Source: Bradyrhizobium sp. CCGB12 (GTDB lineage: Bacteria > Pseudomonadota > Alphaproteobacteria > Rhizobiales > Xanthobacteraceae). From it: 64,000 nt of DNA. The translations under genes and the position numbers were made by a program. The stretch lies in contig NZ_JANADO010000001.1 in assembly GCF_024199845.1 (NCBI RefSeq), forward strand, positions 3,596,001 to 3,660,000. The letters are read 5' to 3'. The notes under the pieces are model-generated. The model saw nothing but the letters and a program-made list of their open reading frames with translations. It had not been told where the DNA came from and ran no database searches. Positions 19,589 to 47,352 of this stretch are shown one piece after another (positions within the stretch are counted from its first letter, which is position 1; each line of letters opens with the position of its first letter).

Positions 19589-20359
19589 TTAGTCATGCAT
19601 TCGATCTGCGACCTCCTGGCATGTGAGAAATGAGGTGCCGTCGAGATTACGGAGCCATATTAGCAACCGGTCCAGGGCCGCGACGCGGCTCGCCCGCGCG
19701 CTGCCATAGTCGCTGCGCGGATGCAGCGTCAGCGTGATCAGGCAGCGCTCGCGATGCATCGCCTCGATCTCCTCGCGCCACATCTTGATGACGCGATCAT
19801 GGGTCTGGCGCTGGGCGTAGAGCGTCGCGTCGATCAGGATCTCCGCATGCGGCACCTCGATCATGCCGCGGCCGCCATCGGCATCCAACGCGTAAGGATG
19901 GTCGTCGTCCTGAAAGCTCGAATCATAGCGATAGCCGAGATCGGCGAGATGTCCGAGCGTTCGTTCGGTGAGCCGGCCATGCGGCGCGCGAAAGCCGCGC
20001 GGCGCACGGCCGACGATCTGAGACAGCGTCGCATGCGCGCGCTCCAGCAGCGCCCGCTCGTCGATGTCGGCCGCATCCATCTCCTCCATCGCCCAGCCGT
20101 GCGCTGCGATCTCGTGGCCGCGGCCGGCGAGCGCTGCGATATAGGCGGGATTGGCCTCCGCCTCCGCGCCCGGCACGAACACGGTGGATTTGATGCCGTG
20201 GCGATCGAACAGGCCGAACAGCCGCTCGCAACCGACGGCATAGGCGTATTTTCCGTAAGACGCGCGGCCGAACAGCGCGTCTTCGCCTAGCTGGGTCCGC
20301 TCCACCGTCTTGCCCTGGAGGTTGACGGTGACGACGACGGGAACGATCGGCTTGCTCAT
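19589..20359 (-). CDS. CE4/PuuE-like polysaccharide-deacetylase-fold protein with degenerate metal site
   Basis: A 256-residue protein of the NodB/CE4 deacetylase fold and last gene of the leftward operon. Motif 1 reads TVNLQG instead of the usual Asp-Asp pair. Motif 2 reads AAHGWAMEEM, so the second metal His is replaced by Met. The RAPHGRLTE and LTLHPRSDYG motifs remain. These changes resemble the PuuE allantoinase-like branch, which works without the canonical metal, so a small-molecule amidohydrolase is more likely than a chitin or peptidoglycan deacetylase. The ATG at 20359 overlaps the stop of the upstream paralogue (ATGA), which decides the start and implies translational coupling. Confidence 0.75.
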   Translation of the reverse strand: MSKPIVPVVVTVNLQGKTVERTQLGEDALFGRASYGKYAYAVGCERLFGLFDRHGIKSTVFVPGAEAEANPAYIAALAGRGHEIAAHGWAMEEMDAADIDERALLERAHATLSQIVGRAPRGFRAPHGRLTERTLGHLADLGYRYDSSFQDDDHPYALDADGGRGMIEVPHAEILIDATLYAQRQTHDRVIKMWREEIEAMHRERCLITLTLHPRSDYGSARASRVAALDRLLIWLRNLDGTSFLTCQEVADRMHD

Positions 20360-21201
20360 TGTCCGCCCCAGTCCCGCCGCCAGTCGGACGGATTCGTCAG
20401 GCACCATTCGGCAAGCTCCAGCATGCCGACGAAACGCACGCCCTCGTGCTGCTTGGCGTATTTGATCAGCCCTTCGACCGCCGCGACGCGCGCGGGCGAG
20501 CCGGAGCCGTAACCGACGCGCGGATGGAAGGTCAGGTTGTAGTAGCCGCCCTCGGCATAGATGGCGTCGAACTCCTGCTCCCAGTGCGCCAGCACTTCCG
20601 ACGGCGGCGTGTAGCTGACGCGGTAGAACGGGAAATCATCTAAGCTCGAGGTGTTGTTGGGCAGGCAGACATAGTCGCTGCGCTCCTCGCCGTCATAGCG
20701 GGCGAGATATGGCAGGTCGAAATCCTTGTCGCTGGAATCGTAGACATAGCCGAGCTCGCGGAGCTTGCGCAACGTGCGCGCGGTCTTGTGGCCCGATGGC
20801 GAACGCCATCCCCTCGGAGCGAGGCCGGTAATCTCGGTGAGCAGCTTGTGCGTTCGTTCCAGCAGCTCCGGCTCGGCATCGCCGGGATCGACGCCTTCGT
20901 GAAAATAGCCGTGCGAGCCAATCTCGATGCCGGAGCGCGAGATGTCGCGGACGAGACCGGGGCTTTCTTCGGCGTCATATCCGGAGACGTAGAACGTCCA
21001 GGGCACGTCGTGCCGCATGAACATGTCGACAAACCGGGGAATACCGCATTTGGCGGAGTAGCGGCCGTGCGAGCGGGCCCCGAGCGGCAATTGCCCGCGG
21101 CCGCGCTCCAGCGAGGTGCCGTCGAAATCGAGGGTGAGGCCGACGACGCAGCGCGCACCGTCAGGCCAGGCATGCTGCCTGCGCTGGGCAAGGGAGATCA
21201 T
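20356..21201 (-). CDS. CE4 polysaccharide deacetylase family protein, metal site intact
   Basis: A 281-residue NodB-fold hydrolase that should remove N- or O-acyl groups or open an amide. Motif 1 is LTLDFDG, motif 2 SHGYFHEG (His-x3-His), motif 3 RSPSGHKT and motif 4 TFHPRVGYGSGSP. The layout is like the HpPgdA/PuuE-type single-domain proteins, without a signal peptide, so it is likely cytoplasmic. Start at 21201 is set by an ATGA overlap with the stop of the upstream binding-protein gene. It is paired with a degenerate paralogue downstream. Context (peptide-type ABC transporter, C45 hydrolase) suggests it acts on an imported amide or acylated amine; the substrate is unknown. Confidence 0.8.
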   Translation of the reverse strand: MISLAQRRQHAWPDGARCVVGLTLDFDGTSLERGRGQLPLGARSHGRYSAKCGIPRFVDMFMRHDVPWTFYVSGYDAEESPGLVRDISRSGIEIGSHGYFHEGVDPGDAEPELLERTHKLLTEITGLAPRGWRSPSGHKTARTLRKLRELGYVYDSSDKDFDLPYLARYDGEERSDYVCLPNNTSSLDDFPFYRVSYTPPSEVLAHWEQEFDAIYAEGGYYNLTFHPRVGYGSGSPARVAAVEGLIKYAKQHEGVRFVGMLELAEWCLTNPSDWRRDWGGQ

Positions 21202-22745
21202 GGGACAAGCTCGACATTCCAGAAGCGGGGTTTTCGGCCCGCCCATGGCGCGTAGCCGCGCACCTTGGGCGAGGCGGCGGAGACATTGACGCCGGAGCTC
21301 CACACGATCATCGGCGCATCGTCGACGAACAGCTTGTGGACCGCATCGAACAGCGGCTGCCGCGCCTCGGGCGCGACTGTCTCCATCAGCTTGCCGAGCA
21401 GATCGATCGCAGCACCGTTGCCCCAGACCTTGTCCGGCTGCGTGGCCTTGTCGCCGATGAAGCGGTCGAGGCCGAAGGCCGGGTCGAGATACGGCGTGTA
21501 GTTCCACACCATCAGCTGATAGTCGCCCTTGTTGTAGCGGCTGAGCTGGGTCGCGAACTCGACGACTTCGACGGTGAGGTTGAGGCCGGCTTGCTGCGCC
21601 ATCGCCTGTGCCAGCACGGCGACGTCGTTCATGACGGGAAAGCGCGAATTGGTGGTGATCTTGATCGGCTCGCCCTTGTATCCCGCCTCCTTCAGAAGCT
21701 TCGTCGCGCGCGCGATATCAAGACTGTAGCCGGCCTGCTCGACTGCGCCGTAATAGCGGCTCGACAGCGGGACAAGCGAGGTGCTCGGCTTGGCATAGCC
21801 ATCAGTTAGGCCATCGCTCATGCTGGGATAATCGAGCGAGGCCGCAATCGCCTCGCGGATGCGCTTGTCCTTGAGCAGCGGATCGTTGGTCTGCATCACG
21901 ATGGCGTTCAGCGAGGCGACCGGTGCCGCGCTGATCACGAGCCCCGCCGACTTCAGCTCGCCCGCGAATTTGGGATCGGCGGAGGGCCAGAGATCGAGAT
22001 TGCCTGACTGAATCGCCGCCTTCGCCGCCGCGGTGTCGGGCACGATGGACAACCTGACGCGGTCGACCTTGGCAAGCTTGACGCCGGCGAGCCCATCGCT
22101 AGGCTCGCTGCGCGCGGCATAGGCCTCGTTGCGGGCGAGTTCGATGAACTGACCGCGGCGCCACTCAGTGAGCTTGAACGGGCCGGTGCCGATCGCCTTC
22201 TGCCAGGTGCCGTCCGCACCGACGGAGTCAGGATGCGCGATGCCGGTGCCGTCGCAATCCGCCCGCGCCATCGTGCTGAGGAAGGCGCCGGTCGGCTCGG
22301 CCAGACGGAAGACGACCTGCTGCGGCGATGGCGTCGTGATCTCGGCGATCTTGATTTTTCGCGTGCCGTCGAAATTGGTCCGGCATGGCCAGCCGGATTT
22401 GGGATCGAGGAAGCGTTCCCAGGTCCACGCCACCTCGCGCGAGGTCAGAGGCGCGCCGTTGTGGAACGTTACGCCCTCGCGCAGCGTGAAGGTGTAGGTG
22501 CGGCTATCCGCCGAGGTCTCGATCGCCTTCGCCAGCATCGGCGCAACCGTGCCGTCGGCGCGCCAGGCGACTAGGCCTTCATAGATCTGTTGAAGCACGA
22601 GGCCGGTGTTGTCGTCGGGGCTGTTGCCCGGCATCAGGCCGCGAATGTCGGTGGTGATCATGCTGCGCAAGACGCTCTCGGCGCGGGCCGCGGACAGCGA
22701 GACAAGCATCAGACACAACGCAACCACAAAACGCTTCATACCCAA
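21198..22745 (-). CDS. ABC transporter substrate-binding protein, family 5 (dipeptide/oligopeptide type), copy 1
   Basis: A 515-residue periplasmic binding protein of the DppA/OppA/GsiB family. It has a Sec signal peptide with likely cleavage after ARA near residue 22, then the family-5 core (ITTDIRGLMPGNSPDDNTGL; LREGVTFHNGAPLTSREVAW). It feeds the permease and ATPase genes immediately upstream. It is about the usual length. A second, diverged family-5 binding protein is encoded in the same operon at 26121-27686, an unusual duplication implying two ligands or one ligand with two affinity states. The start is 8 bases after the stop of the ATPase gene. Confidence 0.88.
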   Translation of the reverse strand: MGMKRFVVALCLMLVSLSAARAESVLRSMITTDIRGLMPGNSPDDNTGLVLQQIYEGLVAWRADGTVAPMLAKAIETSADSRTYTFTLREGVTFHNGAPLTSREVAWTWERFLDPKSGWPCRTNFDGTRKIKIAEITTPSPQQVVFRLAEPTGAFLSTMARADCDGTGIAHPDSVGADGTWQKAIGTGPFKLTEWRRGQFIELARNEAYAARSEPSDGLAGVKLAKVDRVRLSIVPDTAAAKAAIQSGNLDLWPSADPKFAGELKSAGLVISAAPVASLNAIVMQTNDPLLKDKRIREAIAASLDYPSMSDGLTDGYAKPSTSLVPLSSRYYGAVEQAGYSLDIARATKLLKEAGYKGEPIKITTNSRFPVMNDVAVLAQAMAQQAGLNLTVEVVEFATQLSRYNKGDYQLMVWNYTPYLDPAFGLDRFIGDKATQPDKVWGNGAAIDLLGKLMETVAPEARQPLFDAVHKLFVDDAPMIVWSSGVNVSAASPKVRGYAPWAGRKPRFWNVELVP

Positions 22746-22753
22746 TATCCTGT

Positions 22754-24361
22754 CTAGCCCGAGGCGCGCGCCTCCGCCGCCCCCGCAAAATCCAGCACGG
22801 GCGCGGCCGCGAGCAGCGCCTTGGTGTAATCGTGCCGGGGGTGATCGAAGACATCGTCGCGCGAGCCCTGCTCGACGATCTTGCCGCCCTGCATCACCAC
22901 GACGCGGTCGGCGACCTGCTCGACCGCCGCGAGGTCGTGGCTGATGAACAGGCAGGCAAAGCCGTATTGCGCCTGCAGCCGCTCGAACAATTTCAGCACC
23001 TGCGCCTGAATGGTCATGTCGAGCGCCGAGACCGGCTCGTCGGCGACGACGAAGGCCGGCTCGCGCACGATGGCGCGGGCGATCGCGATGCGCTGGCGCT
23101 GCCCCCCGGACAATTCATGCGGCCAACGTTTGCCGAGGCCGACGAGCCCGACCTCGTCCAGCATCGCCTCGACGCGCCTGTCGCGCTCGGCTGTCCTCAG
23201 CTCCGGGACATGACGCAGCGGCTCGGCGACGATCTCACCGACGCGCATGCGCGGGTCGAGCGAGGAATAGGGATCCTGGAACACGAGCTGCGAGGCGAGA
23301 CGAAAGTCGCGATCGATGGTTGACGTCACGTCCCTGCCCCGGAACCTGATCTCACCGCCCGATGTCGGGATCAGCCGCAGCATGGCTCGGCCGAGCGTGG
23401 TCTTGCCGGAGCCGCTGCCGCCGACCACCGCAACCGTCTCACCCGCGGCGATGTCGAGATCGACGCCGTTGACGGCGGAGACGCCGGTGTCACGGCGGAA
23501 CAATCGCTGCCGCCCGGCGAAGCCGACCTTGAGATCACGCACGCTGACGAGAGGCTCGCCGCCCTGGCGCGCCTTGGACGCGGCGCCCCGGCGCGGCAGG
23601 GCTTCGACCAGACGTTTGGTGTAGGCCTCGCGCGGCGAGAACAGGATCTGCCGCGTCGTGCCTGTCTCGATCATCTTGCCCTGGCGCAGCACCAGCGCGC
23701 GCTGCGCATAGCGCGAGACGAGGCCGAGATTGTGGGTGATCAGCATCACCGAGGTGCCATGGTCGCGCGCGAGCCCGACCATGAGGTCGAGCACCTCGCG
23801 CTGGGTCAGCGTATCCAGCGCCGTGGTTGGCTCGTCCGCGATCAGCAGCTTTGGCTTCAGCAGCATCACCGAGGCCAGCATGATGCGCTGACGCATCCCG
23901 CCGGAGAATTCGTGCGGATAGGCGTCGAAGGTACGTTCGGGGTCGCGGATCTGAACGCGCGCGAGCATGTCGAGGCAGCGCTGCCTGATCGCGCGCTTGC
24001 CCAGCCGCTCATGCAGGCCGAGCCCTTCCGCCATCTGCGCACCGACACTGATGGCGGGATTGAGCGAGACCATCGGCTCCTGGAACACCATGCCGACGGT
24101 CGGCCCGCGCAAGGTCCGCATCTGGCGCGCGGAGACATTGGCGAGATCGACACCGTCGAGCACGATGCGGCCGCCGGCCTTGCGCAGGCCCGGTGGCAGC
24201 AGGCCGAGCACCGCACGAGCGGCCGCGGTCTTGCCGCTGCCGGATTCGCCGACGACAGCGAGGAACTCACCACGCTCGACCGCGAAGGAGACGTCGTCGA
24301 CGATCACCGCCTTGCTGGCGGCGACCTCGATGCGCAGGTTTTCGACCGCCAGCAGGCTCAT
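22754..24361 (-). CDS. dipeptide-type ABC transporter, fused double ATP-binding protein
   Basis: A 535-residue protein carrying two complete ATPase domains, equivalent to DppD plus DppF (GsiA-like). Domain 1 has Walker A GESGSGKT at about residue 38, signature FSGGMRQRI and Walker B LLIADEPTTALD. Domain 2, from about residue 280, has GGSGSGKTT, LSGGQRQRIAIARA and VVADEPVSALD. It energises uptake through the two permeases encoded just upstream. Start at 24361 forms an ATGA overlap with the permease stop; longer upstream frames only read through the permease gene. Confidence 0.9.
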   Translation of the reverse strand: MSLLAVENLRIEVAASKAVIVDDVSFAVERGEFLAVVGESGSGKTAAARAVLGLLPPGLRKAGGRIVLDGVDLANVSARQMRTLRGPTVGMVFQEPMVSLNPAISVGAQMAEGLGLHERLGKRAIRQRCLDMLARVQIRDPERTFDAYPHEFSGGMRQRIMLASVMLLKPKLLIADEPTTALDTLTQREVLDLMVGLARDHGTSVMLITHNLGLVSRYAQRALVLRQGKMIETGTTRQILFSPREAYTKRLVEALPRRGAASKARQGGEPLVSVRDLKVGFAGRQRLFRRDTGVSAVNGVDLDIAAGETVAVVGGSGSGKTTLGRAMLRLIPTSGGEIRFRGRDVTSTIDRDFRLASQLVFQDPYSSLDPRMRVGEIVAEPLRHVPELRTAERDRRVEAMLDEVGLVGLGKRWPHELSGGQRQRIAIARAIVREPAFVVADEPVSALDMTIQAQVLKLFERLQAQYGFACLFISHDLAAVEQVADRVVVMQGGKIVEQGSRDDVFDHPRHDYTKALLAAAPVLDFAGAAEARASG

Positions 24362-25170
24362 CCGTGCGCCATCCTGGGGTCGAGGCGATCGCGCAAGGAG
24401 TCGCCGAGGAGATTGATGCCGAGCAGCGTCAGCGCGATGCAGAGGCCCGGCGCGATCGAGAGCCAAGCCGCCGTCTCCATGAACGGACGGCTTGCCGCCA
24501 GCATATTGCCCCAGGTCGGCGCCGGCGGCGGCACGCCGAGGCCGAGGAAGCTCAGGGCGCTCTCGGCCAGCAGCACCCAGCCGAACATGCTGGTCGCGAG
24601 CACCGCAACCGGCGCGATCGCGTTCGGCATGACGTGGCGGAGCATCGAATAGACCTCGGAATTACCGATGACGCGCGAGGCCTCGACATATTCCTTCTCG
24701 CGGATCGACAGCACGGTACCGCGCACCACACGGACGACCGAGGGGATGTAGGCGAGCCCAAGTGCCAGGATCAGTCCGACCTTGTTCGCGCCGACGACGA
24801 TCATCACGGCCAGCGCTAGCAGAATCCCGGGAAACGCAAGCAAGGCGTCGTTGACAGCCATGATGATGCGGTCGGCCCAGCCGCGGATGTAACCAGCCGC
24901 GCAGCCGATCACCATGCCGGCAGTGACGGCGACCAGCACCGTGACCAAAGCGATGATCACGCTTGCGCCGGCCCCGACCATGATGCGGCTCAGTACGTCG
25001 CGTCCGAATTCGTCAGTGCCGAGCCAGTGCAGCGACGACGGCGCCTGCAACCGCGCGCGCAAATTGATGCGCAGCGGATCGAACGGGGTCCAGAACGCCG
25101 CGGTGACGGCCGCACCGAGGAGGAACGCCATGAGGGACCCGCCGATCGCGGTGTTGGCGCGCATCCTCAT
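24358..25170 (-). CDS. dipeptide-type ABC transporter permease, DppC-like
   Basis: A 270-residue inner-membrane permease of the DppC/OppC family. It has an N-terminal membrane segment, the short periplasmic HWLGTDEFGRDVLSR motif typical of DppC, then about five more membrane segments and the EAA loop (EYVEASRVIGNSEVYSMLRH) that contacts the ATPase. Start at 25170 overlaps the DppB-like stop (ATGA). It forms the heterodimeric channel with the neighbouring DppB-like protein. Confidence 0.9.
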   Translation of the reverse strand: MRMRANTAIGGSLMAFLLGAAVTAAFWTPFDPLRINLRARLQAPSSLHWLGTDEFGRDVLSRIMVGAGASVIIALVTVLVAVTAGMVIGCAAGYIRGWADRIIMAVNDALLAFPGILLALAVMIVVGANKVGLILALGLAYIPSVVRVVRGTVLSIREKEYVEASRVIGNSEVYSMLRHVMPNAIAPVAVLATSMFGWVLLAESALSFLGLGVPPPAPTWGNMLAASRPFMETAAWLSIAPGLCIALTLLGINLLGDSLRDRLDPRMAHG

Positions 25171-26111
25171 GCCACCGTCACCCTGGGATCGAACAGCGGA
25201 TAGCAGAGGTCGACGATGAGGTTGACGACGACGTAGATCACGGCGGTGAACAAGAGGCAGCCCTGTACCACCGGATAGTCGCGCGCGAAAATGGAATCGA
25301 CCAGCAACCGTCCGAGGCCCGGCAGCGTGAAGACGGTCTCGATCACGGCGATGCCACCGAGGAGATGACCGAGCACGAGGCCGATCAGCGTCCAGGTCGG
25401 CGCGAACGCGTTGGGCAGAACATGCCGGGCAAGCACCCGCCATTCCGGAACGCCCTTGGCGCGCGCATGCGTGACATATTCGAGCCTGAGCACCTCGATC
25501 GAAGCCGCGCGCGCCATGCGCGTGAGCACGCCGATCTCGACCATGGTCAAGGTCGCAATCGGCAGCACGATGAAGGTCGCTGCCTGCCAGTAGTTCTCCG
25601 CGAACGGCACGTAGCCGATCACCGGTAGCCATTTCAGCTTGAGGCCGAACAGGAGCAGCAGCAGCAGGCCAAGCCAGAAGCTCGGGATCGACAGCAGCAA
25701 TGTGGCCCCGCCGACGATCGAGAGATCGAGCAGGCTGTTCTGCTTCCAGGCCGCAACGAGGCCGGCCGGGACCGCGATGCAGGCAGCCGCAGCGACCGCC
25801 ACCAGCACGATGACGGCGCTGACCTGGAAGCGCTCGAGGATCAGCGGCAGGACCGCGAGATCATTGGTGATGGAGCGACCAAAATCGCCGGCGGCAAGCT
25901 TTGCGATCCAGTGCATGAACTGGACCGGGATCGGCTGGTCGAGGCCAAGCTGCGCGCGGAGCTGCGCCGCCTGCGCGGGATCGGCGGCATCGCCGAGCAT
26001 CACCTGCACCGGGTCGCCCGGAATGAGCCGCACCAGCGCAAACACGGCAATCGCGACCAGCAGCAGCGTCGGGATCGTCATCGCCAACCGTCTTGCGAGG
26101 TAACTCAACAT
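25167..26111 (-). CDS. dipeptide-type ABC transporter permease, DppB-like
   Basis: A 314-residue inner-membrane permease of the DppB/OppB family. It opens with a membrane helix followed by the family hallmark IPGDPVQVMLGDAAD. The EAA loop reads EYVTHARAKGVPEWRVLARH, and the C-terminal DLCYPLFDPRV is also typical. It pairs with the DppC-like gene, whose start overlaps its stop. It lies 9 bases downstream of the second binding-protein gene, so uptake genes form one transcript. Confidence 0.9.
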   Translation of the reverse strand: MLSYLARRLAMTIPTLLLVAIAVFALVRLIPGDPVQVMLGDAADPAQAAQLRAQLGLDQPIPVQFMHWIAKLAAGDFGRSITNDLAVLPLILERFQVSAVIVLVAVAAAACIAVPAGLVAAWKQNSLLDLSIVGGATLLLSIPSFWLGLLLLLLFGLKLKWLPVIGYVPFAENYWQAATFIVLPIATLTMVEIGVLTRMARAASIEVLRLEYVTHARAKGVPEWRVLARHVLPNAFAPTWTLIGLVLGHLLGGIAVIETVFTLPGLGRLLVDSIFARDYPVVQGCLLFTAVIYVVVNLIVDLCYPLFDPRVTVA

Positions 26112-26120
26112 GGCGCCGCC

Positions 26121-27686
26121 CTACTCGACCGTGACGCCCCAGAACCGCGGCTCCGGATAGAGCCAACCGGCATAGCCCTTGATGCTCTTGCGCAGCGCCG
26201 TCAGCTCGGCGCCGTTGAACAGCACGATCATCGGCACGTCGGCGATGAAGCGCTTGTGCATCTCGTCGAACAGCGCCTGCCGCTTCGCGGTATCGTCTGT
26301 TATCATCGACTGGCGCAGCATCTCCTGCGCCTCCGGATTGTCCCAGACCTTGCGCGGCTGCGTCGCCTTCGGCCCGGTCAGCATCTCGAAGCTCAAGGAA
26401 GGATCGAGCCGCGCCGAATAGACGAAGGCCATGGACTGGTAATCGCCACGGTTGTAGCGGTCGAGCTGCGCCGCCCAATCCATCACCTCGAGCTCGATAT
26501 TGATACCGACAGCCTGTGCCATTGCCTGCACCAGAACGGAAGAGTCGAACACGAAGCTGTAGCGCTTGTTGGTGATCATCTTGATCGGCTGGCCGCGATA
26601 GCCGGCCTCCAGCAGCAGCTTCCTTGCCTCCGCGATGTTCTGTGCGTAACCATGCGACTGCACCTCTCCGTAGAAAGGGCTGCCAATCGGCAGTGCGGAA
26701 TTGTTGGGGCGCGCGGTGCCCTGCATCACCGCATCGACGATCTGGGCGGTGTCGATGGACAGCGCGATGGCGCGGCGGATCCGCACGTCCTTCAACAGGG
26801 GATCTCTGGTCTGGAACAGGATGCCGGTCAGGCCGAGAGCGGGCGTGATGCTGAGCTGCACTTCGGGGCGCGACTTCAGCTCTTCGAGGTCGGGGATCGA
26901 CAGGCTCATGATGACATCGAGCGAGCCGCTGAGCAGCCCGGCTTTCGCGGCCGAGCTGTCCGGGATCACGTTGAAGCGCACACGATCGACCTTGACGTCC
27001 TTGGCGCCGGTGTACCCGGTGCGCGGCTCGCTGCGCGAGACGTAGCCGTCGAAACGGACCAGATCCATATACTGTCCCCGCTTCCACTCGCCGAGCTTGA
27101 ACGGACCGGTGCCGATGGGCGCGATCCACTTGCCGTCAGGGCCGACGGAATCGCGATGGATGATCGCGGTCTGGCCGCAATCGGGCCGCGCCAGGGTCGG
27201 CAGGAACAAGGCCGTCGGCTGGTCGAGCGTAATGGCGACGGTCTGCGGATCAGGCGCCTCGATCTTCTCGATCCGCGCGATGCCGGTGGCGCTGAACTCG
27301 GACAGGCAACGCCATTGCGTCGTAGGGTCCAGCCAGCGCTTCAGCGACCAGACCACGTCATCCGAGGTCATGGTTGCGCCGTTGTGGAACTTGACGCCCT
27401 GGCGCAGGCGGAACGTATAGGTCTTGCCCTCGTTCGAAACGGTCCAGCTGTCAGCCAGCATCGGGCCGATCGAGGTGTCGTCGCGGAAGGCGACCAACCC
27501 CTCGACGACATGCGCCACCACGGCATCCGTGTTGGCGTCGCGGTTGGTGCCGGGATCGGTCGAGCGGATATCGGCGTTGAGCCGCGTCCTCAATAATGTT
27601 TCGGCGCCGGCCGTCCCCAGCATCGCCCACAGGGCCAGCGCGGCCAGACCGACCGCCCATGACGGCGATGGGCAACGCCGCCGCAT
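26121..27686 (-). CDS. ABC transporter substrate-binding protein, family 5, copy 2
   Basis: A binding protein of about 521 residues in the DppA/OppA family with an N-terminal signal peptide ending near GTAGAE. It shares the family layout with copy 1 (ADIRSTDPGTNRDANTDAVV; LRQGVKFHNGATMTSDDVVW) but is clearly diverged. It lies between the C45 hydrolase gene and the permeases. The ATG at 27686 overlaps the preceding stop as TGATG; a GTG one codon upstream is an alternative start. Confidence 0.88.
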   Translation of the reverse strand: MRRRCPSPSWAVGLAALALWAMLGTAGAETLLRTRLNADIRSTDPGTNRDANTDAVVAHVVEGLVAFRDDTSIGPMLADSWTVSNEGKTYTFRLRQGVKFHNGATMTSDDVVWSLKRWLDPTTQWRCLSEFSATGIARIEKIEAPDPQTVAITLDQPTALFLPTLARPDCGQTAIIHRDSVGPDGKWIAPIGTGPFKLGEWKRGQYMDLVRFDGYVSRSEPRTGYTGAKDVKVDRVRFNVIPDSSAAKAGLLSGSLDVIMSLSIPDLEELKSRPEVQLSITPALGLTGILFQTRDPLLKDVRIRRAIALSIDTAQIVDAVMQGTARPNNSALPIGSPFYGEVQSHGYAQNIAEARKLLLEAGYRGQPIKMITNKRYSFVFDSSVLVQAMAQAVGINIELEVMDWAAQLDRYNRGDYQSMAFVYSARLDPSLSFEMLTGPKATQPRKVWDNPEAQEMLRQSMITDDTAKRQALFDEMHKRFIADVPMIVLFNGAELTALRKSIKGYAGWLYPEPRFWGVTVE

Positions 27687-28846
27687 CACGCCGACCCTGC
27701 CGCGGCAGAACGCTCGAACGCCGCGCGCCCGATCTCGTCGATCTCGAGCCGGTAGGTGGTGAACTCGCGATTGAGCGCCGGCAGCGGCGCCACCTGCATC
27801 AGCCCGCCTGCCGGCTCCATCAGGATCATCGCCACGGTGGCGCTGAGATTGTTGCTGAGGTTACGGCGTGGCGGACGGCAGACCGACCAGGGATAGGCGA
27901 ATTCGTCGAACAGTGCATTCTTGACGGTGTCGAAGGTGATGCTGCCGATATGCGGCTGGAGCAGATCGCGGACGCGAATGTCGCGGTAGAGACTATCAGG
28001 CGTGTTGAAGATGCCGGTGTCCTTCAGCTTGCTGAGCGCAACGGGGCTGAGGAAGTTATTGGCGTGGACCAGAAGGCCGTTCTGCGGATGCACCTGGAAG
28101 GTCTCATCCGGAGCACACTCGAAGTCGATCGCCACGCCCTCGCGATGGCTGACGATCATGTTGTTGGCCGCCGACTTTTTCGTGCAATAGACCGCGCGCA
28201 TGGCGAGCGCCAGATGCTCGTTCTCCAGGACCTTGCGGCGGATCAGCGCCAGCGGCACGCCGACCTGACGATAGTCCCGATCGCTCTCGAGATAGTTCGC
28301 GGTGATTGCGATGCCGACGGCATTGAAGCCGCAGCGGCCGAGCGCGCCGGCCTCAGTGAAAGTCATCAGATCCGGGCCGTCGTCGCGCCGGACCTTCAGC
28401 ACCACTGCCGTCTCCGCGCATTCGCGCTTCCAGTCCCAGTTCTGGGCGTGGATCAGGCGGCCATCGGCGGTCGCCTGCGGCAGCACGACGACGCCGGTGC
28501 AACCGTCCGGATCTTCCGGCGTCTTCAGGCGCGCGCGGATCGCAGGGTTCGCGAGCTTGATGATCTCGGTGCGGGCATTGAGCAGGACGACATCCTCGAA
28601 CGGAATGTCGGCACCTTCGGCAATGCCGCGCATCTCCTCGATATAGCTGGGGTCGAACCCCTCGATGACGGGCAGATAGTCACGCACCAGCTCGGCGACG
28701 CCCTTCGCGTCGAGCGAGAGCTCCTTCAACTGCGCGAAGTAATGCGTGGTCCCCTTCTTGATGCGGCTCGCCGCCTTCTGTCCGTACTGACGTCCACGCT
28801 CGTGCGGAGGACCGGAGATTTCGATGAGGGGAAAGGGTTCGACCAT
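27686..28846 (-). CDS. C45-family N-terminal-nucleophile hydrolase/acyltransferase (isopenicillin N acyltransferase-like)
   Basis: A 386-residue protein of the acyl-CoA:6-aminopenicillanate acyltransferase / peptidase C45 family. These enzymes self-cleave before a Cys that becomes the N-terminal nucleophile and then cut or transfer acyl groups on amides. Here the nucleophile is Cys116 in DPDGCTG, with downstream family features HAQNWDWK and VLLNARTEI. There is no signal peptide, so it is probably cytoplasmic. It is first in the leftward transport operon. Start at 28846 (MVEPFPLIEISG) agrees with the family N-terminus and leaves a short divergent promoter region to the GntR gene. Hydrolysis of an imported N-acyl or beta-amino amide is inferred. 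Confidence 0.85.
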   Translation of the reverse strand: MVEPFPLIEISGPPHERGRQYGQKAASRIKKGTTHYFAQLKELSLDAKGVAELVRDYLPVIEGFDPSYIEEMRGIAEGADIPFEDVVLLNARTEIIKLANPAIRARLKTPEDPDGCTGVVVLPQATADGRLIHAQNWDWKRECAETAVVLKVRRDDGPDLMTFTEAGALGRCGFNAVGIAITANYLESDRDYRQVGVPLALIRRKVLENEHLALAMRAVYCTKKSAANNMIVSHREGVAIDFECAPDETFQVHPQNGLLVHANNFLSPVALSKLKDTGIFNTPDSLYRDIRVRDLLQPHIGSITFDTVKNALFDEFAYPWSVCRPPRRNLSNNLSATVAMILMEPAGGLMQVAPLPALNREFTTYRLEIDEIGRAAFERSAAAGSA

Positions 28847-28887
28847 GGGACGCCAAGTTCCATTTGCTATCTCATGAAGCCTAATGT

Positions 28888-28913
28888 ATTTTGTGATGAC
28901 ATGAAACAAAAAT
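28888..28913. promoter_or_regulatory. candidate GntR operator
   Basis: Inverted repeat ATTTTGT (28888-28894) and ACAAAAAT (28906-28913), spacer 11, in the divergent region between the C45 hydrolase and GntR genes. It overlaps the likely GntR start at 28901. The TTGT/ACAA half-sites are of the style bound by FadR-like regulators. Assignment is by position only. Confidence 0.35.
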
Positions 28914-29848
28914 CTTTGGCCTTGAAATCTGCCTCGGGAAAAACGCCCCCAAGCCGACTCCAGCGCGAGTTGTCCGCCGGGATCATCAACCTGATCCGGA
29001 GTGAAGGACTTGCGCCCGGAACAAGGCTTGCCGAGGTCGCGTTGGCCGAGCGCCTCCAGGTCTCGCGCACGCCGGTACGCGCCGCGCTGAAGCTGCTGGC
29101 GCGTAGCAAGCTCGTGCATGCAGGTGCCAGCCGCGGCTATTTCGTCGCCGAGACAACCACTGCCCAGCGCCAGGCGCCGCCCAAGCCGAGCCCGGACGAT
29201 ACTGACCGGCTGTTCCTCGCGATCGCGCGCGATCGCCGCGCCGGCCGGCTGCCCGATGAGGTGTCCGAGCGCGACTTGATGCAGCGCTACGATGCGACGC
29301 GGCCGATCGTGCAGCGTGTGCTCACCAGGCTTGCCGAGGTTGCCGCGGTCCAGCGCAAGCCGGGACATGGCTGGCGCTTTCAGCCGACACTTGCGGATAC
29401 GCAGGCACGCGATGAAAGCTATCGTTACCGTCTGCTGATCGAGCCCGCAGGCCTGCTCGAGCCGGGCTTCCAGCTCGATGCGACGTGGGCCGCCGAGATA
29501 CGCCAGCGTCATCAGGACATGCTGGCGATGCCGTGGCGCGACACAGCGAGCATCGCGCTCTACGAGATGAACGCGGCCTTCCACGAGGGCCTCGCGGCCG
29601 CATCAGGCAACCGCTACCTGCTGGTCGCGGTTCAGCAGCAGAACCGGCTGCGACGCTTCGGCAACTACGACTGGACCTTCGGCCATGAGCGCGTGATCGT
29701 GAACTGCCGCGAGCATCTCGCCATTCTCGACCAGCTCGAAGCCGGCCAGAACGAGGCCGCCGCCGCGCTACTGCGCAGGCACCTCGAAGGCGCGGCGAAG
29801 CTCAAGCGCAGCCCGGCCCATTCCACCGCCCCATCAAAGACCGCCTAA
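28901..29848 (+). CDS. GntR-family regulator with two winged-helix domains
   Basis: A regulator of about 315 residues. The N-terminal winged helix (LQRELSAGIINLIRSEGLAP, then LAERLQVSRTPVRAALKLLA) is followed at about residues 100-165 by what looks like a second, diverged winged helix (VSERDLMQRYDATRPIVQRV, wing HGWRF). A helical FCD-like effector domain completes it (FHEGLAAASGNRYLL). FCD proteins normally carry only one DNA-binding domain. It probably controls both the divergent C45/transport operon and its own, which includes the aminotransferase 18 bases downstream. An in-frame ATG at 28874 is an alternative start. The effector is unknown; an amino acid or amide is likely from context. 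Confidence 0.82.
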   Translation: MKQKSLALKSASGKTPPSRLQRELSAGIINLIRSEGLAPGTRLAEVALAERLQVSRTPVRAALKLLARSKLVHAGASRGYFVAETTTAQRQAPPKPSPDDTDRLFLAIARDRRAGRLPDEVSERDLMQRYDATRPIVQRVLTRLAEVAAVQRKPGHGWRFQPTLADTQARDESYRYRLLIEPAGLLEPGFQLDATWAAEIRQRHQDMLAMPWRDTASIALYEMNAAFHEGLAAASGNRYLLVAVQQQNRLRRFGNYDWTFGHERVIVNCREHLAILDQLEAGQNEAAAALLRRHLEGAAKLKRSPAHSTAPSKTA

Positions 29849-29866
29849 CGACGGACAAGAGTTGTC

Positions 29867-31216
29867 ATGACCATGAATGCGTTCGCCTCCTCCAACAGCC
29901 CCCTCACCCGCGAGGCCATGGAGCCGTTCTGGCTGCCGATGACGCCGAACCGACAGTTCAAGTCGAAGCCGCGCATCTTCGTCGGCGCCGAGGGCATGCA
30001 TTACATCACCGACGACAACAGGCGCATTCTCGACGGCATGGCGGGACTGTGGTGCGTGAACGCGGGACATGCGCAAAGACGCATCGTCGAAGCGATCCAG
30101 GCACAAGCAGCGAAGCTCGACTTCGTCTCCTCGTTCCAGATGAGCCATCCCGCCGCCTTCGAGCTCGCCCGGCGCATCACCGAGATCGCGCCCGACGGCC
30201 TCGATCATGTCTTCTTCACCAATTCCGGCTCGGAATCGGTCGACACCGCGCTGAAGATCGCGCGCGGCTATCACCGCGCCCGCGGCGAGGCCAGCCGCAT
30301 CCGCTTCATCTCGCGCGCCAAGGCTTATCACGGCATGGGCTGGGGCGGCCTGTCAGTGAGCGGAATCGTCCGCCACCGCCGGGATTTCGGCCCGCTGCTG
30401 CCGGAGGTCGATCATCTCCCGCATACGCATAATTCGGAGCACGCCGCGTTCTCGCGCGGCCAGCCGCAATGGGGCGCGCATCTCGCCGACGAGTTGTCAA
30501 AGCTGCTGCAGGTCCACGATCCCTCGACCGTTGCCGCGGTCATCGTCGAGCCCGTCACCGGCTCGGGCGGCGTGCTGCCGCCGCCGGTCGGCTATCTCGA
30601 GCGGCTGCGCCAGATCTGCGACCAGAACGGCATTCTCCTGATCTTCGACGAGGTGATCACTGGCTTCGGTCGGCTCGGTGCGGCGTTCGGCGCCAACGCT
30701 TTCGGCGTGACGCCTGATCTCATCACCTGCGCCAAGGGCATGACCAACGCCGCCGTGCCGATGGGCGGCGTCATCACCAGCGACAAGGTTTACGACGCGC
30801 TGATGCAGGGGCCGGACAACACGATCGAGCTGTTCCACGGCTATACTTATTCGGCGCATCCGCTCGCCTGCGCGGCCGGTCTTGCTGCGCTCGACGTCTA
30901 TCAGGACCTCGGCCTGTTCGAGCGGGCGCGCCGCCTCGCGCCGGTGTGGGAGAACCATGCGCACGCCTTGCGCGACCTTCCGCATGTCGTCGACATCCGC
31001 AACATCGGGCTGCTCGCCGCAATCGACCTGAAGGCGCGCGAGGGCGCGCCGGGTGCGCGCGGCAGCGAATGCGCCAGCCGCTGCTATGAGGAGGACAGCA
31101 TCCTGATCCGCAGCAGCGGTGACACGCTCCTGATCTCTCCGCCCCTGATCATCGAGGGAGAACAGATCGAGGAAATCTTCGCCGCCATCCACCGTGCGTT
31201 GATCACAGTCAGCTGA
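29867..31216 (+). CDS. class III omega-amino acid aminotransferase (beta-alanine--pyruvate transaminase-like)
   Basis: A 449-residue PLP enzyme of aminotransferase class III. The N-terminal FWLPMTPNRQFKSKPR is characteristic of omega-amino acid:pyruvate transaminases. Other marks are NSGSESVDTALKIAR (cofactor phosphate region), FDEVITGFGR, and the PLP lysine K290 in TCAKGMTNAAVPMGG. It would convert an omega-amino acid such as beta-alanine plus pyruvate to a semialdehyde plus alanine. It follows the GntR gene by 18 bases. With the C45 hydrolase and amide transporter next door, it may handle an amine released from an imported amide. A strong stem-loop follows the gene. Confidence 0.88.
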   Translation: MTMNAFASSNSPLTREAMEPFWLPMTPNRQFKSKPRIFVGAEGMHYITDDNRRILDGMAGLWCVNAGHAQRRIVEAIQAQAAKLDFVSSFQMSHPAAFELARRITEIAPDGLDHVFFTNSGSESVDTALKIARGYHRARGEASRIRFISRAKAYHGMGWGGLSVSGIVRHRRDFGPLLPEVDHLPHTHNSEHAAFSRGQPQWGAHLADELSKLLQVHDPSTVAAVIVEPVTGSGGVLPPPVGYLERLRQICDQNGILLIFDEVITGFGRLGAAFGANAFGVTPDLITCAKGMTNAAVPMGGVITSDKVYDALMQGPDNTIELFHGYTYSAHPLACAAGLAALDVYQDLGLFERARRLAPVWENHAHALRDLPHVVDIRNIGLLAAIDLKAREGAPGARGSECASRCYEEDSILIRSSGDTLLISPPLIIEGEQIEEIFAAIHRALITVS

Positions 31217-31486: not shown

Positions 31487-32230
31487 CTAGATCGCCGTAT
31501 AGCCCCCGTCGGCGTTGATGCATGCGCCGGTGATAATCGATGCCTTGTCGCTGGCGAGAAAGGCAACGACCTCGGCAATCTCCTCGGGTTGTGCAAGCCG
31601 ACCGATCGGCTGGCGCACCAGCATCGCCTGCCGGGTCGCCTCGGGAAGCTTGGCAAGAAGCGGCGTATCGACATAGCCCGGCGAGACGCAATTGACCCGA
31701 ATGCCGCGCTTTGCATAGGTCAGTGCGACGGAGCGGGTGAGATTGACGACGGCGGCCTTTGCGGCCGAATAGGCGTTGCTGTTCTCCTGGCCGACATGGG
31801 CAAGGATCGACGCCATGTTGACGATCGCCCCGCCGCCTGCCGCCAGCATGGCGCCGGCCGCAAACTTGTTGCAGAGGGCGACGCCGGTGAGATCAACATC
31901 GATCACGCGCCGCCAATCGGCAAGATCGAGCTCATGGATCGGCGACTTGCGCTCGGGAATGCCGGCATTGGCGACAAGAATGTCGAGCCTGCCAAAGCGG
32001 GATGTCGCAAATTGCATCAGCGCAGCAACATCGGCCTCGTCGGTCACGTCGACGCGCTGGAACGCAACGGAGAAACCGTCGCCGGTAAGCTCCGCCGCGA
32101 GGGCCGCACCGCTTTCGGCGAGATCGCCGATCACGATCTTCGCGCCCTCCGCAACGAACAGCCGTGCGATGGCCGCACCGATCCCGGATCCGCCGCCGGT
32201 GACTACCGCGATCTTTCCCTCCAGCAGCAT
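31487..32230 (-). CDS. short-chain dehydrogenase/reductase (SDR)
   Basis: A 247-residue classical SDR oxidising or reducing a hydroxyl/keto group with NAD(P). The cofactor loop is TGGGSGIG, followed by NAG, with a catalytic Ser in NMASI and Tyr-x3-Lys in YSAAK. An Asp at the end of beta 2 (IGDLAE) favours NAD. The ATG at 32230 is chosen because AAGGAG sits 7 bases upstream; a GTG at 32248 that overlaps the previous stop is an alternative. It is the last gene of a four-gene leftward operon with a KstD-like flavoprotein. The substrate is unknown. Confidence 0.85.
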   Translation of the reverse strand: MLLEGKIAVVTGGGSGIGAAIARLFVAEGAKIVIGDLAESGAALAAELTGDGFSVAFQRVDVTDEADVAALMQFATSRFGRLDILVANAGIPERKSPIHELDLADWRRVIDVDLTGVALCNKFAAGAMLAAGGGAIVNMASILAHVGQENSNAYSAAKAAVVNLTRSVALTYAKRGIRVNCVSPGYVDTPLLAKLPEATRQAMLVRQPIGRLAQPEEIAEVVAFLASDKASIITGACINADGGYTAI

Positions 32231-32244
32231 CGCCGCGCTCCTTG

Positions 32245-33039
32245 TCACTTGTCCTCAAACCCTGGTCGCGGAACGATTCCCATCATCGTTCTGGTGAAGC
32301 CACCATCGACGACGATCTCCTCGCCCGTGATGTAGCCCGCGCGTTCACTCGCCAGAAACACCACCGCATCGGCGATATCTTCGGGCCGGCCGATCCTGCG
32401 CAACGGCACGAGCTTTTGCCGAGCGGCCTCGACACCTTGCGCCCGGTAGATAGCTTCGGTCATCGGGGTGCGGATCATGCCTGGACTGACGACGTTGCTG
32501 CGCACGCCGCGTGGTCCCCACTCGGTCGCGAGCTGACGGGAGAACATGACGACGCCTGCCTTGCTGACGCTATAGGCGCCACTATGTCCTTGCGGAAAAG
32601 AAGCCGCGATCGAGGCGACATGGACGATCGCGCCCGCCTTTCGCGCCAACATCGGCGCGCCGAACGCTCGCGCACAACGCAGATAGCCGGTCAGGTTGAG
32701 CGCAAGAATCTTGTCCCAGTCAGCCAAACTCACGGCGTCGAGACCGCCAGGCAGCATGGTGCCTGCATTATTGACCAGAATATCGGGCGAACCGATCTTT
32801 GTCCTGACATGCTCGGCGATGCGCGCGACATCGTCATCGCTGGTGACATCGGAGACGAAGAACTCTGCCTGTCCTCCCCCTTGGCGAATCTCCGCCGCGA
32901 CGGAAGCTCCCGCCTCATCGCGATCGAGCACCACCACATTCGCTCCGACCGCGGCAAGACCACGCGCGATGCCTCGCCCGATGCCGGCACCGCCGCCGGT
33001 GACGATCGCAATTTTTGCGGTGAGATCGATCCATGTCAT
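32245..33039 (-). CDS. short-chain dehydrogenase/reductase (SDR)
   Basis: A 264-residue classical SDR with TGGGAGIG cofactor loop, NNAGT, and a catalytic set from HVASI and YSVSK. Asp in VLDRDE suggests NAD preference. It is related to, but clearly distinct from, the SDR downstream, so two successive alcohol or ketone steps are plausible. Start at 33039 (MTWIDLTAK) matches the family N-terminus. It lies 32 bases after the NIPSNAP gene. Confidence 0.85.
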   Translation of the reverse strand: MTWIDLTAKIAIVTGGGAGIGRGIARGLAAVGANVVVLDRDEAGASVAAEIRQGGGQAEFFVSDVTSDDDVARIAEHVRTKIGSPDILVNNAGTMLPGGLDAVSLADWDKILALNLTGYLRCARAFGAPMLARKAGAIVHVASIAASFPQGHSGAYSVSKAGVVMFSRQLATEWGPRGVRSNVVSPGMIRTPMTEAIYRAQGVEAARQKLVPLRRIGRPEDIADAVVFLASERAGYITGEEIVVDGGFTRTMMGIVPRPGFEDK

Positions 33040-33071
33040 GCAATTCTCCGGGAGTTGAGGACGCCGGCGCG

Positions 33072-33410
33072 TCAGGTCGGCGAGCCAGCCAGCGACGGCA
33101 GCTCGATCCTGCGGATCAGCCGGTTCTCCTGCGCCGTGATGAGATGCTCTGACGCCTTCAGGTAAGTCGGCCAATCCGGGTCCTTGTCGCGCGCAGCGTG
33201 TCGGCGCTCGAACTCGCCCATATCGGGGAAGCCCCAGAGGTGCACGATCTGGTTCAACGGCCCGACCGCGCTCGTGAACATTCCGAGCGGCCGGCCGAGA
33301 TGACGAAGCTGGACCGGCATTGCGAGCCGGTCGAACACATCGATGAACTCGGCCATCTTGCGCAAGCGGATGGTGTAGACACGCAAATCGACGATCGCGG
33401 GTTCGGTCAT
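33072..33410 (-). CDS. NIPSNAP-family protein
   Basis: A 112-residue single-domain NIPSNAP protein with a ferredoxin-like dimeric alpha/beta-barrel fold, seen from the DLRVYTIRLRKMAEF opening and the VHLWGFPDMGEFERRH core. Function of bacterial members is poorly known. They recur in catabolic operons, where a role in binding or isomerising a reactive intermediate has been suggested. It sits between the flavoprotein and SDR genes with short gaps, and a two-domain relative is encoded at 49120-49734 in the same island. Confidence 0.75.
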   Translation of the reverse strand: MTEPAIVDLRVYTIRLRKMAEFIDVFDRLAMPVQLRHLGRPLGMFTSAVGPLNQIVHLWGFPDMGEFERRHAARDKDPDWPTYLKASEHLITAQENRLIRRIELPSLAGSPT

Positions 33411-33420
33411 CGGATATCCT

Positions 33421-45633: not shown

Positions 45634-47352
45634 ATGTTCAAGACCATCGACGCAATCTCACAAAGCTACGACCTCATCGTGATCGGCTCCGGAGCGGCCG
45701 GCATGGCGGCCGCCCTGTTCGCAGCGATCGAGGGCCGCAAGGTGCTCATGGTGGAGCGCACCGAACATGTCGGCGGCACAAGCGCGCTGTCGGCCGCGAC
45801 CACGTGGATGCCGAACTCGCATCACTCCAAAACCGTCAATCCCGACGACAGCCGCGAGAAGGTCCGCAAGTTCCTCGACGGCGTTGTCGGCAACCATTCG
45901 CCCGCCGCAATGCGCGAGGCGTTCCTGGACAGCGCGCCGGAGGCGGTCGCGACCCTCGAGGCCAACAGCGAGGTCAAGTTCCGTCCCTATGCGACCCATC
46001 CCGATTACGAGCAGCAGTTCGAGGGCGCGACCATGCGCGGCCGCGCACTCGAACCGGTCCCGTATGACGGCCGCGAACTTGGCGCCGACCTCGACAAGAT
46101 TCGCCCGCCGATTCCGGAGTTCACGATCTTCGGCGGCATGATGGTCGATCGCACCGACATCGGCCACCTCCTCGCTATCAAGAAGTCGGCGCGTTCCTTT
46201 GCTCATGCGGCCAAGATCTTAGCACACTACGCCGGCGACAAGCTGAAGGGCCGGCGCGGATCGCGCCTCGTCATGGGCAACGCGCTGATCGGCCGTTTCC
46301 TCGCATCGCTGAACGCCCGCGGCGTGGACATTCTGCTCCGGACCGAAGTGCAGGACCTCGTGACCGAGAACGGCGCCGTCACCGGCGTGAAGCTCAGCTC
46401 GGGGACCACAACGCGGCAGGTCGCTGCGACACGCGGCGTCGTGCTGGCCGCCGGCGGGTTCAACAGGCACCCGCAGCGACGCGGCGAATTGCTGCCGCAA
46501 GGCGAGAGCCACAGCCCGGCGGCACCGGGCCACACCGGCGCCATGCAGGACATCGCGTTGCGGCTTGGGGCGCGTCTTGGCGAAGGCAATCTCGACAGCG
46601 CGTTCTGGGCTCCTGTCTCGATCCGGCGCCGCGCCGACGGCAGCACGGCGAGTTTTCCGCATTTCGTCATGGACCGAAGCAAGCCCGGCACCGTCTGTGT
46701 CGACCAGACCGGACGACGCTTCGTCAACGAATCCGTCTCTTATCACCTGTTCGGGCGCGCGATGTTCGAGCACAACAAGACCGTGCCTTGCATCCCCTGC
46801 TTCATCATTACCGACGCGGTCGGCCTGAAGAAGTACGGTCTCGGCATGGTGCGCATGGGGACGGGCAACCTCGCCCCCTATCTCGCCGACGGCTACCTGA
46901 CCGAGGGCGCGACGGTTGCGGAACTCGCCAGCAAGATCGGCGTGCCCGCGGCCAGCCTCGAAGCCACCATCGCCGCGATGAACCGCTATGCCGCCAGCGG
47001 CAAGGATGACGAATTCGGCCGCGGCACCACGCCCTATCACAGGGTCAACGGCGATGCCTCGGTCGGGCCTAATCCGACGCTTGGTCCGATCATGACTGCG
47101 CCCTATTACGCCGTGCGGCTCTATCCCGGCGATATCGGTGCTGCGACCGGGCTTGTCATCGACGAATGGGCGCAAGTGATGCGGGACGACGGCCGGCCAA
47201 TCACGGGGCTCTATGCGTGTGGCAACGAAGCGAATTCCATCATGGGCGGGACCTATCCCGGACCGGGCATCACCATTGGCCCGGCCATCACCTTCGCGTA
47301 TCGCGCGGTGCGCCATGCCCTCGGCGATGCGCAAGCGCGCAACGCCGCCTGA
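45634..47352 (+). CDS. FAD-dependent oxidoreductase, KstD-like, copy 2
   Basis: A 572-residue flavoprotein with VIGSGAAGMA near the N-terminus, HVGGTSALSAATTWMP, and the C-terminal signature SIMGGTYPGPG then GPAITFAY, with Tyr541 at the KstD catalytic position. It is clearly a paralogue of the genes at 33421 and 47375. It lies 5 bases after the AroE-like stop, in the same operon. Delta-1 type dehydrogenation or the reverse reduction of a cyclic enone is the family chemistry; the actual substrate is unknown. Confidence 0.85.
   Translation: MFKTIDAISQSYDLIVIGSGAAGMAAALFAAIEGRKVLMVERTEHVGGTSALSAATTWMPNSHHSKTVNPDDSREKVRKFLDGVVGNHSPAAMREAFLDSAPEAVATLEANSEVKFRPYATHPDYEQQFEGATMRGRALEPVPYDGRELGADLDKIRPPIPEFTIFGGMMVDRTDIGHLLAIKKSARSFAHAAKILAHYAGDKLKGRRGSRLVMGNALIGRFLASLNARGVDILLRTEVQDLVTENGAVTGVKLSSGTTTRQVAATRGVVLAAGGFNRHPQRRGELLPQGESHSPAAPGHTGAMQDIALRLGARLGEGNLDSAFWAPVSIRRRADGSTASFPHFVMDRSKPGTVCVDQTGRRFVNESVSYHLFGRAMFEHNKTVPCIPCFIITDAVGLKKYGLGMVRMGTGNLAPYLADGYLTEGATVAELASKIGVPAASLEATIAAMNRYAASGKDDEFGRGTTPYHRVNGDASVGPNPTLGPIMTAPYYAVRLYPGDIGAATGLVIDEWAQVMRDDGRPITGLYACGNEANSIMGGTYPGPGITIGPAITFAYRAVRHALGDAQARNAA

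Follow-up and report, generated by a model that had tools for sequence, protein, structure and literature searches.

We analyzed a 64,000-nucleotide stretch of Bradyrhizobium sp. CCGB12 (contig NZ_JANADO010000001.1, positions 3,596,001 to 3,660,000; the window) and found that a C45-family N-terminal nucleophile (Ntn) hydrolase gene within it belongs to a conserved catabolic-type unit, in which an ATP-binding cassette (ABC) importer accompanies catabolic enzymes. The unit is real and its kind is known; what is unusual is its cassettes of solute-binding protein (SBP) plus hydrolase and its pair of NodB-fold (CE4) proteins, one intact and one degenerate. With moderate confidence, we read the locus as an operon for the import and catabolism of a small natural amide, which the C45 enzyme would hydrolyze and whose product an AptA-family enzyme would transaminate, with further hydrolases added as plug-in cassettes. 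An original prediction had placed ten genes here, and the reading frames, the starts and Pfam and NCBIfam profile scans of the window proteins confirmed all ten (Table 1); signal peptides were judged by eye from the translations. Transcription on the minus strand runs through C45, SBP1, DppB, DppC, the fused ATPase, SBP2, CE4a and CE4b, with GntR and AptA divergent. Neighboring minus-strand reading frames share a few bases or lie at most 14 bp apart, making translational coupling plausible.

The gene neighborhood is kept well beyond the genus. We scanned genome contigs for C45 loci and took the best 80 of 474 relatives; counts out of 80 refer to these closest loci, in which genes were called by tblastn with fixed identity limits. 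They comprised 24 Bradyrhizobium loci and 56 others, mostly from alpha- and betaproteobacteria (among them Microvirga, Roseomonas and kin, Acidovorax, Cupriavidus, Bordetella and Achromobacter), with one Rokuibacteriota metagenome-assembled genome. DppB, DppC and the ATPase were each found in 59 of the 80 loci, a family-5 SBP in 61, GntR in 58, AptA in 46, and CE4a and CE4b in 16 each. The 34 non-Bradyrhizobium loci longer than 20 kb contained the importer in 26 cases, an SBP in 28, GntR in 27, AptA in 19 and the CE4 pair in six. Since the best 80 are the closest relatives, we also examined 398 genomes drawn evenly over phylum, nine of which had a C45 protein at E ≤ 1e-70, the window's own genome included. 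The other eight genomes gave nine loci: the importer and an SBP were each present in six, GntR in five, the esterase-like gene described below in three and AptA in two, neither CE4 nor amidase genes were found in any, and two C45 genes stood alone. The two sets of counts define a core of C45, importer and GntR, with AptA frequent but not universal. The original prediction had named a lack of linkage among relatives as grounds for rejecting it; this was looked at in the 80 loci and in the phylum sample and did not refute it, and the recurrence of the genes around C45 supports one conserved catabolic-type unit.

The families concerned are not rare in the 9.43-Mb genome, which has 13 CE4 domain matches, 26 family-5 SBP matches and eight AptA-like class-III aminotransferases at E ≤ 1e-60, window copies included. 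Despite such family counts the same set recurs around C45 in many genera, so the grouping is more than chance. An ordinary di- or oligopeptide importer with loosely associated enzymes, the C45 protein being a general peptidase-like enzyme, would agree with the placement of every transporter part in the Dpp/Opp/Nik superfamily. We nevertheless hold it highly unlikely, as C45, importer, GntR and AptA recur jointly, the AptA and SBP clades are cluster-specific (see below), and the genome has one close C45 gene against its 26 SBP matches. Two further C45 genes in this genome (C1:1842786 and C1:8759069) lie far apart, and their stretches are 98.3% identical over 1,330 bp (L001, L002). The cluster is not a property of every C45 gene: the region around the first of these two (L125), the one of the pair that was scanned, had no cluster genes at E 1e-8. 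A six-frame genome search with PF03417 found the two other C45 genes and missed that of the window, which scores 54.5 bits by hmmscan, marking the limit of its sensitivity.

In the C45 protein, Cys116 comes immediately after Gly115 and lines up with the DGC in isopenicillin N acyltransferase (2x1d). The cysteine occurs in 81 of 81 aligned rows and the glycine in 80 of 81, which confirms the nucleophile position proposed in the original prediction; autocleavage is predicted between the two residues. The structure model (pLDDT 85, pTM 0.88) has its best fold match in isopenicillin N acyltransferase 2x1c (TM 0.79/0.85), followed by acid ceramidase, N-acylethanolamine amidase (NAAA) and bile-salt hydrolases. 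This match and a score well above the NF040521 cut-off support an amide-hydrolase fold. The nearest solved fold being a penicillin-making acyltransferase, the C45 enzyme could instead serve detoxification or antibiotic modification, with a beta-lactam or another N-acyl antibiotic being deacylated or transacylated after import. The presence of import genes and of a transaminase would favor nutrition over protection, and we find this explanation scarcely probable. The SBPs have signal-like starts and no signal peptide was seen by eye in the translations of C45, CE4a or CE4b, so the natural assumption is that hydrolysis follows import.

The part of the substrate that reaches the transaminase may differ from what had been proposed. 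According to a review, Drosophila tan is highly similar to isopenicillin N acyltransferase, is self-cleaved at Gly121-Cys122 and hydrolyzes N-beta-alanyldopamine and carcinine (PMC5085778). Since tan cleaves beta-alanyl amides, the omega-amino acid may by analogy be the acyl half of the C45 substrate rather than its freed amine. Of the proposal that C45 frees an amine that is then transaminated, the transaminase family is upheld, and the assignment of the two halves of the amide may be the reverse.

AptA appears to be the dedicated TRANSAMINASE of the cluster. In a tree of 80 proteins, the 50 C45-linked AptAs that passed the filters given below fell on one side and 30 background sequences on the opposite side (SH-aLRT 99), and the cluster AptAs did not group with those of genomes at large but formed a separate clade. 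The background was drawn from 120 genomes plus the genome's own paralogue; hits below 42% identity, with fewer than 330 aligned columns or second in their locus were excluded, which left 45 rows from the 80 loci (46 AptA-positive). Position 88 is Ser in 50 of 50 cluster members and Pro in 26 of 30 background sequences. Lys290 and Arg415, which we take to be the pyridoxal-phosphate lysine and the carboxylate-type arginine, are each conserved in 80 of 80 rows. The second AptA, at 5.29 Mb, is 58% identical to the cluster AptA and scores higher on NF052567 (719.6 vs 672.7 bits); both values exceed the cut-off of 500, and the assignment to the omega-amino acid:pyruvate transaminase family stands. 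The closest solved relatives of the window AptA are beta-alanine or omega-amino acid:pyruvate transaminases, and a review lists beta-alanine and beta-aminobutyrate as substrates with which the C. crescentus omega-transaminase shows high activity (PMC3281772).

Both operons are separated by a short conserved element. Across the 21 aligned Bradyrhizobium rows, a block around TTGTTTCATGTCATCACAAAATACATT between them is nearly constant, whereas its flanks vary. The strict form of the element occurs once in the 9.43-Mb genome when up to three mismatches are allowed (one in the window, none in shuffles). Of 88 loci, 42 matched a relaxed pattern upstream of C45, comprising 22 of the 24 from Bradyrhizobium, 19 of the 63 others and L114, and the remaining 46 did not; L108, L112 and L113 were excluded from the scan. 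Because the pattern was derived from these sites, its count is descriptive and no independent test; its low background rate (one match elsewhere in 3.29 Mb of those loci, both strands) and its distance to the C45 start were not fixed by the derivation. Of 24 matches listed, 23 lie 62-80 nt from the C45 start and one, in L080, 175. The 27-bp element is likely a GntR operator and/or promoter. The GntR DNA-binding model matches the regulator in two stretches ahead of the FCD domain, so that it possibly has two tandem winged helices. Matches to the FadR-type operator consensus (TNGT..ACNA) were scattered and gave no consistent site, and a sigma-70 promoter scan found none where 1.2 were expected.

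SBP1 and SBP2 are 48% identical and belong to different lineages. A tree of 94 SBPs places the proteins adjoining C45 (64), the CE4 pair (13) and the esterase-like gene (15) in separate groups. The CE4-linked SBPs, SBP2 included, are a single clade (SH-aLRT 100), SBP1 groups with the C45-adjoining proteins, and the esterase-linked group needs three changes. Hits with less than 36% identity, less than 75% coverage or several stops did not enter the tree, and the program warns of long branches for two Roseomonas CE4-linked SBPs. The proposal of two binding proteins serving one permease is supported. By sequence, SBP1 matches best in the Protein Data Bank (PDB) to AgaA 6hlx (6.6e-52), whose ligand is presumably an opine; the match is too distant for the ligand of SBP1 to be inferred from it.

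A second SBP goes with an additional hydrolase. Three families of accessory hydrolase emerged when neighboring open reading frames were clustered: the CE4 pair in 16 loci, an esterase-like protein in 11 and an amidase-signature amidase in six (Amidase 292.8 bits). The one esterase-like representative scanned had no Pfam match and weak, sub-cut-off NCBIfam matches of polyhydroxybutyrate-depolymerase type. Of the 59 loci with DppB, 23 have an accessory hydrolase and 18 of these have two SBPs, against 0 of the 36 that lack a hydrolase (Fisher p 5e-11; the loci are not independent), so that all 18 two-SBP loci have a hydrolase, five loci have a hydrolase with one SBP and 36 have neither. L042, outside these 59, likewise has two SBPs and an esterase-like gene. 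CE4a and CE4b occur together in 16 of the 80 loci and apart in none. Four loci (L055, L068, L085 and L086) contain C45 and the CE4 pair with no Dpp importer in their flanks, indicating that the link between C45 and CE4 is independent of the importer; in L055, L068 and L085 (Alcaligenaceae), TctC-type binding proteins lie beside them (TctC 224 bits in L068). The CE4 pair was rejected as a core component, as only 16 of 80 loci carry it. Of the gene set that had been proposed as one system, the core is upheld, whereas SBP2 and the CE4 pair are an accessory cassette outside it, with an esterase-like or amidase gene elsewhere. Some genomes contain two copies of the cluster: Bradyrhizobium sp. LTSP849 has one with CE4 and another with esterase-like and amidase genes (L018, L035), and Microvirga sp. 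VF16 has different cassettes on a plasmid and the chromosome (L050, L051).

The two CE4 proteins differ in their metal-binding residues. CE4a retains the second-motif Asp, which we assume to be the metal-binding one, and both His residues in 14 of 14 aligned rows, window included, and so has the metal triad; its first-motif Asp is replaced by His in two of the 14 (L083, L087). L050, L055 and L085 were left out of this alignment. In CE4b, the Asp-His-His triad is absent from the window protein and from 109 of 111 aligned homologues, and the first-motif Asp is Asn in 110 of the 111 rows with a letter there. These 111 remain from the 120 of 163 homologues listed after nine under 240 aa were removed; P0172 has the full triad but is closer to CE4a, and P0183 has a gap at the site. 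Arg140, Pro142, Asp167, Tyr172, Arg231 and Gly235 of CE4b are invariant in all aligned rows, which argues for a conserved altered subunit and not a decaying gene. The claim of two NodB-fold hydrolases therefore holds for CE4a, with its metal-type residues, and not for CE4b, which is no canonical CE4 hydrolase. CE4b is the likely partner of CE4a, with which it may form a heteromer. A class-wide CE4a search at E ≤ 1e-45 returned the window's own genome as the single match among 289. Separately, a structure alignment comprised 39 sequences, L049 being left out for a stop inside its tblastn range.

By sequence, both CE4 proteins resemble PuuE-type small-molecule amidases. CE4a is nearest in the PDB to 3rxz and then to PuuE 3cl6, CE4b also belongs nearest to the PuuE-type class, and the CE4b model (pLDDT 92.9) has fold matches to 3rxz, HpPgdA and PuuE. 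PuuE is described in two papers as a metal-independent enzyme with a small cyclic imide as substrate and a reduced pocket (PMC3084791; PMC10967932). Membership in this class makes a small amide a likelier substrate of the pair than a polysaccharide. The likeness would also suit a ring-opening route, in which CE4a opens a cyclic imide or ureide, C45 removes the N-carbamoyl or N-acyl group and AptA accepts the beta-amino acid, a parallel to reductive pyrimidine breakdown that relies on unrelated enzymes. We consider this quite unlikely: it covers the CE4-bearing loci only (16 of 80), the PuuE allantoinase model TIGR03212 scores the two CE4 proteins at 81.5 and 57.9, far under its cut-off of 424.6, and the esterase-like cassettes do not fit. 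Muropeptide import with deacetylation by the CE4 pair, that is cell-wall recycling, draws on the presence of such functions in the CE4 and Dpp/Mpp families. A role as wall deacetylase is disfavored by the PuuE-like class and the absence of a signal peptide by eye; with CE4b lacking the metal triad and C45 and AptA left unexplained, cell-wall recycling seems extremely unlikely.

Taking the amide-import reading as a whole, we infer the following reactions and order. SBP1 would pass a small omega-aminoacyl or N-acyl amide to the importer of DppBC and the fused DppDF, and the self-cleaved C45 enzyme would use Cys116 to hydrolyze the amide in the cytoplasm. The freed omega-amino acid or primary amine and pyruvate would be converted by the dedicated AptA to a semialdehyde and L-alanine. 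GntR would control both divergent operons from the one element. SBP2 would supply the same permease with a related compound in masked form, probably cyclic or N-acylated, for the CE4 pair to unmask ahead of C45, with CE4a active and CE4b structural or altered; in other genomes an esterase-like or amidase cassette would take the place of the CE4 pair.

Several observations weigh against this reading. Bradyrhizobium L027 keeps the C45 gene (89%) with none of the cluster. AptA is missing from 34 of the 80 loci, some of them truncated, and from seven of the nine sample loci, so transamination is not obligatory. A semialdehyde dehydrogenase was not found in the window cluster, and an aldehyde dehydrogenase (ALDH) is linked in 12 of the 80 loci. 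Neither SBP reached the cut-off of an NCBIfam model, which leaves them without a substrate-named family. On the C45 tree, a median of five of six independent pairs show the SBP-hydrolase association the same way and none the opposite (p 0.0625); with so few independent events once kinship is removed, the association is only suggestive. It also has an exception in L079, which has two family-5 SBPs, C45, AptA and GntR and in whose flanks neither the Dpp importer nor any of the three accessory hydrolases was found. The ALDH of L048 is below the cut-off of 25 of 25 models among the matches listed, including that for methylmalonate-semialdehyde dehydrogenase (MMSDH; 259 vs 448.5); beta-alanine is mildly disfavored, as this linked ALDH is not like the CoA-acylating MMSDH.

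The last point bears on the most specific proposal for the substrate. Beta-alanyl amides or pantothenate would fit, and a pantothenase-like or tan-like C45 could release beta-alanine from pantothenate or another beta-alanine amide for conversion by AptA to malonate semialdehyde. The beta-alanyl amide hydrolysis by tan and the activity of AptA kin on beta-alanine cited above favor this route, and pantothenate has its appeal in that a 2023 paper gave the pantothenase protein as unknown (PMC10393543). We judge pantothenate or another beta-alanine amide unlikely as the specific substrate, given the L048 ALDH, the better fit of the other AptA to the family model, by which the cluster AptA may be specialized otherwise, and the lack of an obvious role for the esterase-like, amidase and CE4 cassettes. 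A broader extension of the amide-import reading is tentative, and we doubt it more than we trust it: an undescribed, widespread proteobacterial omega-aminoacyl-amide pathway, with a core that includes the dedicated AptA clade, SBP-hydrolase cassettes on one permease, a CE4 heteromer with a conserved degenerate member, and a C45 enzyme that could be the pantothenase in some species.

Table 1. Features of the C45 locus, with positions in the window
Feature	Position	Strand	Evidence
C45-family Ntn hydrolase/acyltransferase	27686..28846	-	NF040521 296.1 bits (cut-off 85); AAT 54.5 bits (cut-off 23.2)
SBP1, core family-5 solute-binding protein	26121..27686	-	SBP_bac_5 299 bits; signal-like N-terminus by eye
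DppB-type permease	25167..26111	-	BPD_transp_1 137.7 bits; no NCBIfam cut-off reached
DppC-type permease	24358..25164	-	BPD_transp_1 100.5 bits; no NCBIfam cut-off reached
Fused DppD-DppF type ATPase with both ABC domains on a single polypeptide	22754..24361	-	ABC_tran 207.9 bits, two stretches; oligo_HPY
SBP2, cassette family-5 solute-binding protein	21198..22739	-	SBP_bac_5 272 bits
CE4a, NodB-fold hydrolase	20356..21201	-	Polysacc_deac_1 58.9 bits
CE4b, NodB-fold paralogue	19589..20359 (alternative start 20407)	-	Polysacc_deac_1 62.6 bits
27-bp element between divergent operons	28883..28909	-	Overlaps GntR ATG at 28901
GntR/FCD regulator	28901..29848 (alternative start 28874)	+	GntR two stretches; FCD 60.7 bits
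AptA-family omega-amino acid:pyruvate transaminase	29867..31216	+	NF052567 672.7 bits (cut-off 500)

The operon does not extend into the short-chain dehydrogenase/reductase (SDR) genes at 31490-33039, which were rejected as members because matches of at least 40% identity occur in one (SDR1) and none (SDR2) of the 80 loci. In the regions 31490-35085 and 47213-49099, an SDR scores above the cut-off for ChcB2, a cis-4-hydroxycyclohexanecarboxylate dehydrogenase (415.9 vs 350), and two flavin adenine dinucleotide (FAD) proteins near it are ChcC2-related and below the ChcC2 cut-off; it is possible that genes for alicyclic-acid aromatization adjoin the operon. On the minus strand, 1382-18640 is a single open frame of 5,752 aa that by eye resembles a giant repetitive secreted or adhesin-like protein. 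An IclR regulator, an aconitase-family protein, a distantly BhcA-like class-V aminotransferase, SBP_bac_6 and ABC importer genes at 53955-62124 may represent another import or catabolic gene set.

C45 enzymes are abundant, with at least 2,858 proteins at E ≤ 1e-20 among 8,000 candidates scored, and we found no physiological role for this bacterial C45 group in the open-licence literature. A description of the cluster was not found there either, in agreement with the claim that no named pathway has this gene set. The neighborhood described here provides this group with a role open to testing, together with a dedicated transaminase, a candidate operator and, for ligand screens, two binding proteins, and its SBP-plus-hydrolase cassettes suggest how one ABC importer might widen its diet by added modules. 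The substrate, once found, would put a name to a route for amide nitrogen in soil and could decide whether this is the missing pantothenase.

Several known systems come close to parts of the locus. Acyl-CoA:isopenicillin N acyltransferase (IAT) shares its fold, the aligned Gly-Cys and a C45 model match with the window C45, but the two are about 25% identical, and IAT acts in penicillin biosynthesis whereas the C45 gene stands beside importer and transaminase genes in a bacterial operon of catabolic type. Drosophila tan, likened to the window C45 by description, is also an IAT-like self-cleaving amide hydrolase, and its product beta-alanine is an AptA-type substrate; its setting, in contrast, is insect neurotransmitter recycling (PMC5085778). 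Caulobacter AptA belongs to the same NCBIfam equivalog, and its Lys and Arg are conserved in the cluster AptA; the cluster AptAs nevertheless occupy a separate clade, and the other copy in the genome is the better match to the AptA model. The PuuE/HpPgdA/3rxz class of NodB proteins is nearest to both CE4s by sequence and to CE4b by fold, but the window CE4s fall far under the PuuE cut-off and are always an intact/degenerate pair in the 80 loci. Dpp/Opp/Nik and opine-type (AgaA) importers have the same domain set and SBP family, whereas here a single importer has alternative SBPs tied to different hydrolase lineages. The nylon-oligomer system, in which nylA, nylC, nylD and nylE supply an amidase, a self-cleaving Ntn hydrolase, an omega-transaminase and an ALDH, follows a similar logic; its Ntn hydrolase is of another family, and the window locus differs in having an importer and no evident link to nylon.

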